The notes under the pieces: generated by a model
The model's input: the letters and a program-made list of their open reading frames with translations, nothing else
Database searches by the model: none
Told to the model about the DNA's origin: nothing
Shown: positions 4,578-7,160 of the stretch, piece by piece
Position numbering within the stretch: position 1 is the stretch's first letter
Layout of the letters: each line of letters opens with the position of its first letter
Translations under genes and position numbers: made by a program
NCBI GenBank assembly: GCA_029558905.1
Contig: JAKQCX010000012.1
Location: 36,255 to 100,254, forward strand
Direction: 5' to 3'
Length of the DNA: 64,000 nt
Source: Pseudomonadota bacterium
GTDB lineage: Bacteria; Pseudomonadota; Gammaproteobacteria; Burkholderiales; Thiobacillaceae

Positions 4578-4757
4578 ATCTCCCTGCTGCGTACGCGAGA
4601 GGCGCATATTTTTTGAGCCGATACGCACTGCGTAAGGTCTGGCAACAATGTCATGGGCGTGCGCGTGGCAATGTCCATGTGCCCGATGTGGCTGAACCGG
4701 ACCGACCTTGAACCAAGGGGTTCAAGATAGCGTCCCGGACGGCGCAAGCGGGGGGAC
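4578..4757 (+). ncRNA. ssrS: 6S RNA
   Basis: Regulatory RNA that mimics an open promoter and binds sigma-70 RNA polymerase in stationary phase. Seen here: the motif CTTGAACCAAGGGGTTCAAG, nearly identical to the conserved 3'-side hairpin of proteobacterial 6S RNA; TTGAGCCGATA on the 5' side; and end segments that pair into a closing stem (TCTCCCTGCTGCG near 4579 with GCGCAAGCGGGGGA near 4743). Length is about 180 nt. It lies between zapA and 5-formyl-THF cyclo-ligase, its usual location. Exact ends are estimated. Confidence 0.9.
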
Positions 4758-4764
4758 CCCACCC

Positions 4765-5421
4765 ATGCAGGAAGCGCACGCCTCCCCTCCACCGCCTGAC
4801 AAGTCGGACCTGCGCCGCCAGTTGCGCGTCACGCGCCAGACCGTGCCCCGGGAGGCCCGGCGCAAGGCCGGCAAGGCCTTGGTGCGGCATGCCCTGCGAC
4901 ACCATCTGCTGGCGGCAGGCAAGCGCGTGGGCTTCTACATGCCCACCCAGGCGGAGATCGATGTCCTGCCCCTGCTGCGGCGTGCCTACGTCATGGGCGT
5001 GCACTGCTACCTGCCCATCGTGCCGGGCCGCAACCAGCGCAAACTCTGGTTCACACACCTGGATCGCCCGATCCGTCGCTGCCCTCACTGGTATCTGAAC
5101 CGTTTCGGCATCCAGGAATACCAGCCCCCGGGCCAGCGAAGGATACGTGGCGCCTGGCTGCGGACGGTCTTCATGCCTTTGCTGGGTTTCGACCGCCGGG
5201 GCCATCGCATCGGCATGGGCGGCGGCTATTACGATGCCAGCCTGGCCTTTCGCACGCGCCGCATGGCCTGGCATGGCCCCCGCCTGATCGGCGTGGCGTT
5301 TTCCGCCCAGGAGATCGGCTGGCTACCCAATGATGCCTGGGACGTTCCCCTGGATGGGGTGCTCACCGAGCGTGGGCTGTTGCGTTCCCGGAACCGGACC
5401 CCGTCAGCAAGCCTGGGGTGA
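4765..5421 (+). CDS. 5-formyltetrahydrofolate cyclo-ligase (YgfA/FAU1 family)
   Basis: Converts 5-formyl-THF to 5,10-methenyl-THF using ATP. The family signature is present as RIGMGGGYYDASL, with KSDLRRQLRVTRQ at the N-terminus and GVAFSAQE near the C-terminus. At 218 aa it is slightly longer than many homologues because of an N-terminal HASPPPPDKS linker. The ATG lies just past the 3' end of the 6S RNA, and GGGGG just upstream could serve as ribosome-binding site. An earlier ATG (4708) would start inside the 6S RNA and is rejected. Confidence 0.9.
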   Translation: MQEAHASPPPPDKSDLRRQLRVTRQTVPREARRKAGKALVRHALRHHLLAAGKRVGFYMPTQAEIDVLPLLRRAYVMGVHCYLPIVPGRNQRKLWFTHLDRPIRRCPHWYLNRFGIQEYQPPGQRRIRGAWLRTVFMPLLGFDRRGHRIGMGGGYYDASLAFRTRRMAWHGPRLIGVAFSAQEIGWLPNDAWDVPLDGVLTERGLLRSRNRTPSASLG

Positions 5422-5578: not shown

Positions 5579-5607
5579 AAAAAAAGGGTGGAACTCGCGT
5601 TCCACCC
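5579..5607 (-). terminator. Rho-independent terminator of the repeat-protein gene
   Basis: On the minus strand a perfect 9-bp stem (GGGTGGAAC paired with GTTCCACCC, 4-nt loop) is followed by seven T residues. It lies 25 bp after the stop codon at 5632. Confidence 0.9.
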
Positions 5608-5631
5608 TTCTGCCTGCATGTGCCGCCGGGA

Positions 5632-6306
5632 TTACTTGGCAGCGGGTGCCGCGGGCGCGGCGGGCGCCACGGGTACCGGGAAGAAGCCGGCGAGCGGGTT
5701 GGCGATGTTGCCGTAGGTAGCGGGGTTCATGAAGGCGCCCCAGGTGCCGTAGGTGGCGGGGTTAGCGGCCGCCGCGGCCCACTGGGTGTACAGGTTGGGG
5801 TTCAGGGGCGCCATCATCAGATTCATGTTGGCGGGGTTCAGGGGGGCCATGGCCCAGTTCAGGTACAGGTTGGGGTTCAGGGTGTTCAGGGCCATGTTCC
5901 ACACGCGCGGATCCAGAGGCGCCATCATCCACTTGACGTACATGTTGGGGTTGAGGAACGGAGCCATGGCGGCCATGTAGAAGTTGGGGTCCATACTGGC
6001 GGCCAGCCACTTCATGGCAACGGCAGGGTCAGCGAAGTTGGCATAGGTCTTGAGGATGTCGGGAGACATGCCGGCCTGCAGCATCTTGGTGTAGGTGGCG
6101 GGGTCCATGCCTTTCTGCATCATGATGATGGAGGTGGCGGGATCCATCAGGTTGGTCATGGCGGCCACGGCAGCCTTGGGATCCTGAGCGGTCTGGGCAG
6201 CCTTGGCGGGATCCAGCAGGGCGGAGGCGGTGGCTTCGGGGGTGGGCTGATCGGCGAAGGCAACTTGCGCCATCAGGGCCATGAGGAGGGCGGAAAACTT
6301 CTTCAT
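5632..6306 (-). CDS. Secreted protein of 12-13 residue tandem repeats, function unknown
   Basis: Not recognised as a named family. The 224-residue product begins with a clear signal peptide (MKKFSALLMALMAQVAFA, cleavage before DQ). From about residue 33 it is a run of about eleven units of 12-13 residues, each starting Asp/Asn-Pro, with Tyr or Trp around position 5, Trp or Met around 8, and Met or Leu at the end: for example DPATYTKMLQAGM, NPNMYVKWMMAPL, NPNLYLNWAMAPL, NPATYGTWGAFM. The tail is Ala/Pro-rich (PVAPAAPAAPAAK). There are no cysteines. An exact TATAAT lies 52 nt upstream, an AAGGAG ribosome-binding site precedes the ATG and a strong terminator follows, so it is a single-gene unit. 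A periplasmic or extracellular structural protein is only a guess. Confidence 0.8.
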   Translation of the reverse strand: MKKFSALLMALMAQVAFADQPTPEATASALLDPAKAAQTAQDPKAAVAAMTNLMDPATSIIMMQKGMDPATYTKMLQAGMSPDILKTYANFADPAVAMKWLAASMDPNFYMAAMAPFLNPNMYVKWMMAPLDPRVWNMALNTLNPNLYLNWAMAPLNPANMNLMMAPLNPNLYTQWAAAAANPATYGTWGAFMNPATYGNIANPLAGFFPVPVAPAAPAAPAAK

Positions 6307-6357
6307 TTGGATGCTCCTTGAGGGGGGGTTGATGAAACGGTGAATTCGTGGAAGCGA

Positions 6358-6363
6358 ATTATA
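6358..6363 (-). promoter_or_regulatory. -10 element upstream of the repeat-protein gene
   Basis: A perfect TATAAT on the minus strand, 52 nt before the ATG. I see no convincing -35 element at 16-18 bp. Confidence 0.45.
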
Positions 6364-6452
6364 GGCAACCGGATTTGCGGACCCATCAGTTTCGTGCTGG
6401 TTCTTTTGGGCCATCGCTTGCGCGTTGCGGACACGCAACATTGTGATCGAGC

Positions 6453-7160
6453 TCACTCGCCGAGATAGGCCGCGCGTATCCGTGTATCCATCGCCAATTC
6501 CGGGGAGTTGCCGCTCAGGCTGATGCTGCCGCTTTCCATGACATAGGCCCGCTGACTGATGCGCAAGGCCAGATGGGCATTTTGCTCCACCAGCAGGATG
6601 GTGACGCCCTCGCGCGCAACGGTGGTCACGGTTTCGTAGATCCTGCGCACCATCAGAGGGGCCAGGCCCATGCTGGGCTCATCCAGCAGCAACAAACGCG
6701 GACGGCCCATGAGGGCCCGGGCGATGGCCAGCATCTGTTGTTCCCCTCCCGACAGGGTGCCCGCCAGCTGATCCCTGCGCTCTTCCAGGCGCGGAAAGAG
6801 GGCGTGGACATGCGCCATATCGACGCGTATCGCTGCGTGATCGCGGCGACTGTAGGCCCCCATGGCCAGATTCTCCGCCACCGTCAGCCGCCCGAAGATC
6901 CCGCGGCCCTCCGGTACCAGGGCTATGCCACGGGTGGCGATTTCATGCGTGGCCCTGCCGGTCAGACAGGCTCCGTCGAAATGCACCTGGCCCTCATGGC
7001 CGACCAGGCCCATGAGGCCCCTGAGGGTGCTGCTCTTGCCGGCGCCATTGGGGCCGATGAGACACACCAGCTCACCCTGGGCGATGTCCAGGTCGATGCC
7101 ACGCACCGCCTGGATGCCGCCGTAGGCCACACGCAGCCCCCGCACAGCAAGCAGGCTCAT
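6453..7160 (-). CDS. livF: LivF, branched-chain amino acid ABC transporter ATPase
   Basis: One of two ATPases powering a high-affinity branched-chain (or related) amino acid importer. Walker A is GPNGAGKSS at about residues 37-45, the signature is LSGGEQQ, and Walker B is LLLLDEPSMGLAP, the last characteristic of the LivF branch. Length is 235 aa, typical. The start overlaps livG by 4 bp (ATGA). It is the last gene of the leftward livK-H-M-G-F operon. Confidence 0.93.
   Translation of the reverse strand: MSLLAVRGLRVAYGGIQAVRGIDLDIAQGELVCLIGPNGAGKSSTLRGLMGLVGHEGQVHFDGACLTGRATHEIATRGIALVPEGRGIFGRLTVAENLAMGAYSRRDHAAIRVDMAHVHALFPRLEERRDQLAGTLSGGEQQMLAIARALMGRPRLLLLDEPSMGLAPLMVRRIYETVTTVAREGVTILLVEQNAHLALRISQRAYVMESGSISLSGNSPELAMDTRIRAAYLGE

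Follow-up and report, generated by a model that had tools for sequence, protein, structure and literature searches.

Predicted periplasmic repeat proteins with regularly spaced prolines in Thiobacillaceae: a possible holder of zero-valent sulfur

The published systems closest to the protein described here are compared below from the available excerpts of the papers cited. In Allochromatium vinosum, the sulfur globule proteins SgpA-SgpD are exported, are very hydrophobic and carry regularly spaced prolines (PMC10386293). The STI1 domain is a hand made up of six short helices; its turns carry conserved prolines and its groove is rich in Met (PMC13083928). The DUF302 proteins of sox clusters are, as the excerpt presents them, unexplained periplasmic proteins of sulfur loci, and for T. 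thioparus the same source suggests an unidentified protein for releasing sulfur (PMC5248467); the import of sulfur is described as poorly understood in the part seen of another paper (PMC11582611). The family described here may bear on the fate of the sulfur atom where SoxCD is lacking, and on how insoluble sulfur is stored and handed over to the cytoplasm.

We studied a gene in a stretch of 64,000 nucleotides from a Thiobacillaceae genome (the window) that encodes a repeat protein, referred to below as the target. The features on which the analysis draws are as follows.

5632..6306, minus strand: coding sequence of the repeat protein, 224 amino acids, stop codon included in the interval (ATG at 6304-6306, stop at 5632-5634)
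6253..6306, minus strand: predicted signal peptide, about residues 1-18 (AQVAFA / DQP), by eye, with an AlphaFold2 helix at residues 3-15
5689..6213, minus strand: repeat region, residues 32-206, with 14 Asp/Asn-Pro motifs and units of mostly 12-13 residues, from spacings, shuffles and the AlphaFold2 model
5635..5688, minus strand: Pro/Ala-rich C-terminal tail, residues 207-224, from the sequence, with low model confidence
6314..6319, minus strand: ribosome-binding site AAGGAG, read directly
6358..6363, minus strand: TATAAT, a possible -10 box with no clear -35, read directly
5579..5610, minus strand: intrinsic terminator, an 8-bp GC-rich stem (A-U extended) with seven U, fold computed
6424..6439, no strand assigned: palindrome GTTGC-N6-GCAAC, a candidate operator
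6453..7160, minus strand: livF-like ABC ATPase gene, the conserved upstream neighbor (LivF is the best NCBIfam match, below its cut-off)
4708..5421, plus strand: ygfA, 5-formyltetrahydrofolate cyclo-ligase, the conserved neighbor on the other side (TIGR02727 over its cut-off)

An earlier sequence-only reading had placed a secreted protein of about eleven repeats in this open reading frame; the frame itself was borne out on the minus strand, and the signal peptide can be recognized by eye, as a prediction. The 14 Asp/Asn-Pro dipeptides are spaced by 10, 13, 13, 25, 13, 13, 13, 12, 13, 12, 13, 12 and 9 residues, the spacing of 25 dividing into 13+12 at a Ser-Pro (residue 81). Lengths of 12 or 13 residues account for ten of the 13 spacings, against a maximum of three among 5000 residue shuffles of the mature protein, and the number of [DN]P dipeptides itself reached at most 11 in 5000 shuffles. 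The repeat pattern therefore stands, with a count of about 12 to 14 units rather than eleven, and the proposed drift from Asp-Pro to Asn-Pro toward the C terminus is real: residues 32-106 and 132 carry Asp-Pro, whereas Asn-Pro stands at 119 and from 144 to 203. Over 467 units of 12-13 residues from 63 relatives the consensus is [DN]-P-x-x-Y-x-x-W/M-M/L-x-x-x-M/L, with Tyr at position 5 and Trp at position 8 in 49% of units each, and with Met or Leu in 64% at position 9 and in 76% at position 13.

The mature part of the target is 22% Ala, 13% Pro and 9.7% Met; Met averages 10.6% in the 63 relatives and reaches 20% and 30% in two distant members. Such a content would suit a Met-rich periplasmic protein that captures oxidants or metals (copper, for example), but we consider this reading improbable: Pro, Tyr and Trp are conserved in the units as much as Met is, the mature part contains neither His nor Cys, and no gene for metal transport or Met-sulfoxide repair was noticed by eye in the neighborhood maps.

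AlphaFold2, given 63 sequences, modeled the target with a mean pLDDT of 85.4 and a pTM of 0.70, with block means of 90-97 over residues 21-160; each unit contains about one helix, 8-12 residues long. The target is thus predicted to be a chain of short Pro-capped helices, one for each unit. For a subtype of the family with Asn-Pro, Met- and Tyr-rich units (P0089, 68 sequences), the model follows the same plan at lower confidence, a helix of 7 to 8 residues recurring about every 9 residues (mean pLDDT 77.7, pTM 0.54, block means 84-92 over residues 61-170). With the target model, no Foldseek match in the PDB or in the viral set had an E under 1, and the fold search with the subtype model was likewise without a match. 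The structure prediction that the sequence-only reading had recommended gave one short helix per unit with no Foldseek match. That reading could not assign a family, and the searches agree with it: the target matched no family in Pfam and NCBIfam and nothing significant among PDB sequences, and its 63 aligned relatives had no Pfam match below E 0.06; a strong match to a characterized family, named in advance as evidence against the proposal, appeared in none of Pfam, NCBIfam, PDB or Foldseek. Among the papers searched, none concerned STI1 in the bacterial periplasm, and the excerpts surveyed on sulfur globules and wider subjects do not describe the repeat family. What emerges is a repeat of about 12.5 residues with one short helix per unit, for which no Pfam model or PDB fold match was found.

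A protein search with the target gave 85 homologues, some of which bear BON or OmpA domains at scores that exceed the Pfam cut-offs; the closest (P0002, 60% identical over 80%) has a BON domain. The window's genome holds six copies, the target among them, and one is fused to OmpA (G000:C8, PF00691 at 63.6 bits). Like OmpA-type peptidoglycan-binding envelope proteins, one conserved paralogue group has a C-terminal OmpA domain, whereas the window's protein differs from them in having none (PF00691 absent in the Pfam search). Together with the signal peptide recognized by eye, the OmpA- and BON-fused relatives support the structural periplasmic role that the sequence-only reading had advanced as speculation.

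Family matches (E<=0.001) occur in 29 of 61 related genomes, with 3-9 matches each. By rank, carriers are 23/23 in the genus (own genome included), 6/14 in the rest of the taxonomic family and 0/24 in the rest of the order. Over the 80 loci retained of 97, the named records with relatives include Thiobacillus, Parasulfuritortus and further Betaproteobacteria; one carrier, Parasulfuritortus cantonensis LSR1 (L073), is a cultured environmental bacterium, but most relatives derive from metagenome assemblies. A profile search at the level of the order matched 8 of 399 genomes, 2 further carriers among them; at the level of the class 9 of 369 matched, the own genome and a spurious match included, which leaves seven other carriers, whose proteins are homologous to the family by profile comparison (99.7%, E 2e-25). 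The spurious match, in G768, is a 36-residue open frame with a stop in a region where the repeat gene is absent, and it was rejected. The Asn-Pro subtype also compares with the family profile at 99.1%, a score perhaps inflated by short repeats; its protein search gave 383 homologues, and "hypothetical protein" is every product name among the 120 of the 383 that were listed. Examples of the subtype are L182 548-1959 and 2065-3054, L174 807-1430 and L109 8597-9409, and in two genomes it lies near soxYZ and DUF302. Two members from the order-level search alternate 12 and 13, in 23/23 spacings of one and 21/22 of the other (the exception being one spacing of 25). The distant members L133 1489-2670 and L132 1075-2517 contain 20-30% Met with the 12/13 alternation nearly unbroken, and these near-regular natural repeats could suit structural work.

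One reading of such an envelope protein is a holdase or lipid-contact protein whose short Met-rich helices would form a hydrophobic groove, as in STI1/DP domains, and which, independently of sulfur metabolism, would hold lipids or unfolded proteins of the outer membrane. The STI1/DP domains of ubiquilin, Dsk2 and Hop are likewise Met-rich short helices with conserved Pro turns, according to the excerpt available (PMC13083928), whereas the target is exported, bacterial and built of about 12 or more regular units against six helices. In 37 genomes, PF17830 (STI1-HOP_DP) gave nine matches at E<=0.1, eight of them inside family members and the ninth (L160) in another protein, so that these sub-threshold matches fall almost only in the target's family. 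The distant Met-rich L133 passes the cut-off of PF23195 UBQLN1 (51.8 against 27 bits) and that of PF13877 (28.3 bits). The OmpA and BON fusions, and mlaE beside one paralogue group, also fit an envelope holdase. On the other side, every PF17830 match was under the cut-off (0/37 genomes over it, the best at 19.8 against 29.1 bits) and the target had none; the PF23195 score of L133 adds up over many repeats, and this model passed its cut-off neither in the target nor in any of the 37 genomes. In a direct STI1 scan one real paralogue scored 14.1 bits and a second (L156) gave no match, as did seven shuffles that left the first 22 residues and the D/N/S-P pairs intact. No STI1 structure appeared among the fold-search results, and the holdase reading leaves the sulfur loci described below unexplained. 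For these reasons we regard it as unlikely, if still worth weighing. Membership of ubiquilin/STI1 was tried and rejected, six PF23195 matches in the 37 genomes lying outside any family ORF and the eight PF17830 matches in the family being sub-threshold. In the comparison with the STI1 helical hand, short helices at Pro turns are predicted for the target, and the fold search was without a match. For the predicted helices the closest structural parallel is an STI1-like groove that would accept hydrophobic clients, although the membership test fails.

The gene neighborhoods separate the paralogue groups. The place of the target's group, conserved in many loci of the target type, is between livF and ygfA, and other groups have conserved places at mlaE-cysS, at a proton pyrophosphatase and in sulfur loci. 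The family ORFs with enough upstream sequence (n=149) included 37 at livF/ygfA, 37 at mlaE/cysS and 13 in sulfur loci, the last label being given where DUF302 or FCSD lay no more than 4.5 kb away. The group that adjoins the proton pyrophosphatase is the OmpA-fused one; the pyrophosphatase falls within the sequence covered in 2 of its 6 rows. The conserved place next to livF and ygfA could indicate an accessory protein of an upstream branched-chain amino acid (Liv-type) uptake system, and in G469, from another family of the class, a relative adjoins a Liv/Urt-like gene set (by eye) but is convergent with it. We rate this as very improbable, since livF is not beside the other paralogue groups, livF and the target are separated by 146 nt with a palindrome and a -10-like box between them, and the target has its own terminator. 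In many relatives a second, shorter repeat gene (end WLxLP ... RY) lies between the target orthologue and ygfA (L016 669-1370, L009 645-1379, L012 2286-2981 and others); no such gene lies between the target and ygfA in the window. A 6S RNA (RF00013, 54.3 bits) is found at window 4578-4758 (plus strand), immediately ahead of ygfA and running over its annotated start; there was no other Rfam match within the window, and ARAGORN found no tRNA there. One homologue, P0031, starts as LivF and ends as a repeat protein, probably because sequence at the conserved livF place was deleted or was joined in assembly.

The target itself is not beside sulfur genes, nor is the great majority of family ORFs. 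Members of other groups are. From tblastn distances and gene maps, a member stands directly between DUF302 and the cytochrome c/FCSD genes in L025, L030, L043, L081 and L084, and directly between an FCSD homologue and SoxY in L109 and L113. In L036 the order is SoxY and SoxZ, a kinase, two CZB-like genes, rhodanese, DUF302, the repeat gene, cytochrome c, the FCSD flavoprotein and a NapA-like gene (FCSD, DUF302 and rhodanese named by Pfam, SoxZ and SoxY by NCBIfam, and the kinase, CZB and NapA by eye). In L109 it is an FCSD homologue, the repeat gene, SoxY, SoxZ, DUF302 and a Met-rich Asn-Pro protein. Outside the taxonomic family, G219 has Sulf_transp, the repeat gene and DUF302 in order; G358 has the same three in a row with a thioredoxin-like gene inserted; and in G439 a stretch of about 9 kb contains Sulf_transp, several repeat genes, DUF302, SoxZ and SoxY. 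A repeat gene following a sulfur-transporter gene was seen in two other families of the order. DUF302 proteins adjoin repeat genes in four lineages (L036 6529-7254, L193 9784-10467, L192 10596-11312, L185 12672-13703); they differ from the repeat proteins in domain and are neighbors rather than relatives, and they may be functional partners. In the tree the target's group joins the sulfur-locus groups and not the mla or OmpA groups, with a support of 89/99 that is not strong; through this node a sulfur role of the window's copy would follow by homology from its sulfur-linked paralogues.

Carriage of the family was then compared with sulfur-oxidation genes. In the class sample (369 genomes, with the own genome left out and G768 not counted as a carrier), dsrA is over its cut-off in 6/7 carriers and 105/361 others (Fisher p=0.0036), or in 4/5 carrier genera (binomial p=0.03). 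The leaving out of G768 weakens the association, because that genome has dsrA and soxB. Of the class-level carriers, G518 has no dsrA above the cut-off and G635 no soxB. Outside the taxonomic family, dsrA is over its cut-off in 8/9 carriers (the miss being G518) and 6/37 non-carriers, and soxB in 8/9 carriers (the miss being G635) and 16/37 non-carriers, where the 37 non-carriers were hand-picked rather than drawn at random, leave out five of the listed run and include G768. Inside the taxonomic family neither gene discriminates, because the non-carriers examined there have both (soxB in 8/8, dsrA in 7/8 over the cut-off). No soxC over the cut-off was found in the 30 carriers examined, of 38 known (counted in carriers only), and their Sox systems are therefore of the type that leaves sulfane sulfur.

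Taken together, we think it possible, though short of probable, that the target binds or coats zero-valent sulfur (S8 or polysulfane) in the periplasm. Sulfane sulfur would be left there by FCSD and by a Sox system that has no SoxCD, and the Cys-free units, rich in Met, Leu, Trp and Tyr, could hold it non-covalently in the form of particles or small clusters; OmpA-fused paralogues would anchor the held sulfur to peptidoglycan, and the DUF302, rhodanese and YeeE-type neighbors would hand it over to the rDsr route of the cytoplasm. The window's copy would be a further member of this sulfur-holding set under its own regulator. The coat or granule role guessed at by the sequence-only reading is partly supported: it gains from the paralogues beside sulfur genes and loses from the position of the window's copy outside any sulfur locus; because those paralogues adjoin FCSD, SoxYZ, DUF302 and sulfur-transporter genes, the granule would be one of zero-valent sulfur. 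A more specific form, which we hold to be unlikely, casts the family as the periplasmic protein, so far missing, that accepts sulfane sulfur where Sox lacks SoxCD. It would be a "sulfur chaperone" with an STI1-like groove, tethered to peptidoglycan through the OmpA paralogue, and its Cys-free, Pro-capped helices would capture the S8 or polysulfane that FCSD and Sox produce.

Among described proteins, the holder of zero-valent sulfur proposed here resembles Sgp, as far as the excerpt goes, in its signal peptide, hydrophobic repetitive sequence, spaced prolines, several genes per genome and occurrence in sulfur oxidizers of the rDsr type. The target has the Sec signal peptide (by eye) and the hydrophobic proline-spaced repeats, and its own genome has both dsrA and soxB over their cut-offs, as expected of a host that oxidizes sulfur by rDsr. 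It differs in a Pro spacing of 12-13 against mostly 2-5 in Sgp (PMC10386293) and in the OmpA domains of one group of its family, Sgp being compared here by its partial published description. No NCBIfam sulfur globule model matched the target or nine distant relatives. The family provides a delimited set of genes, partly located within sulfur-oxidation operons, that is open to deletion and binding tests.

A strong terminator behind the target, as claimed from the sequence, is borne out by the hairpin and U run: a 71-nt stretch folds at -31.7 kcal/mol (z -4.2), a signal overlooked by the consensus scan. A promoter of the target's own, also claimed, is plausible, because TATAAT and AAGGAG were read by eye and the consensus scan found no two-hexamer sigma-70 site upstream. 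The palindrome occurs as well in the target-type loci of 23 relatives, 103-159 nt before the guessed start codon and with varying spacer letters. It was absent upstream of the other groups (0/37 mla, 0/13 sulfur-locus, 0/6 OmpA and 0/21 partner genes), in a scan that used script-guessed start codons and missed the window's site, which was read directly. Among the groups scanned it is thus confined to target-type loci, which suggests a regulator specific to the target's group that acts through it. The whole genome holds two GTTGC-N6-GCAAC sites, 7 kb apart, the second (G000:C11:35437-35452) lying just outside the window at the end of an ORF that resembles gpsA by eye.
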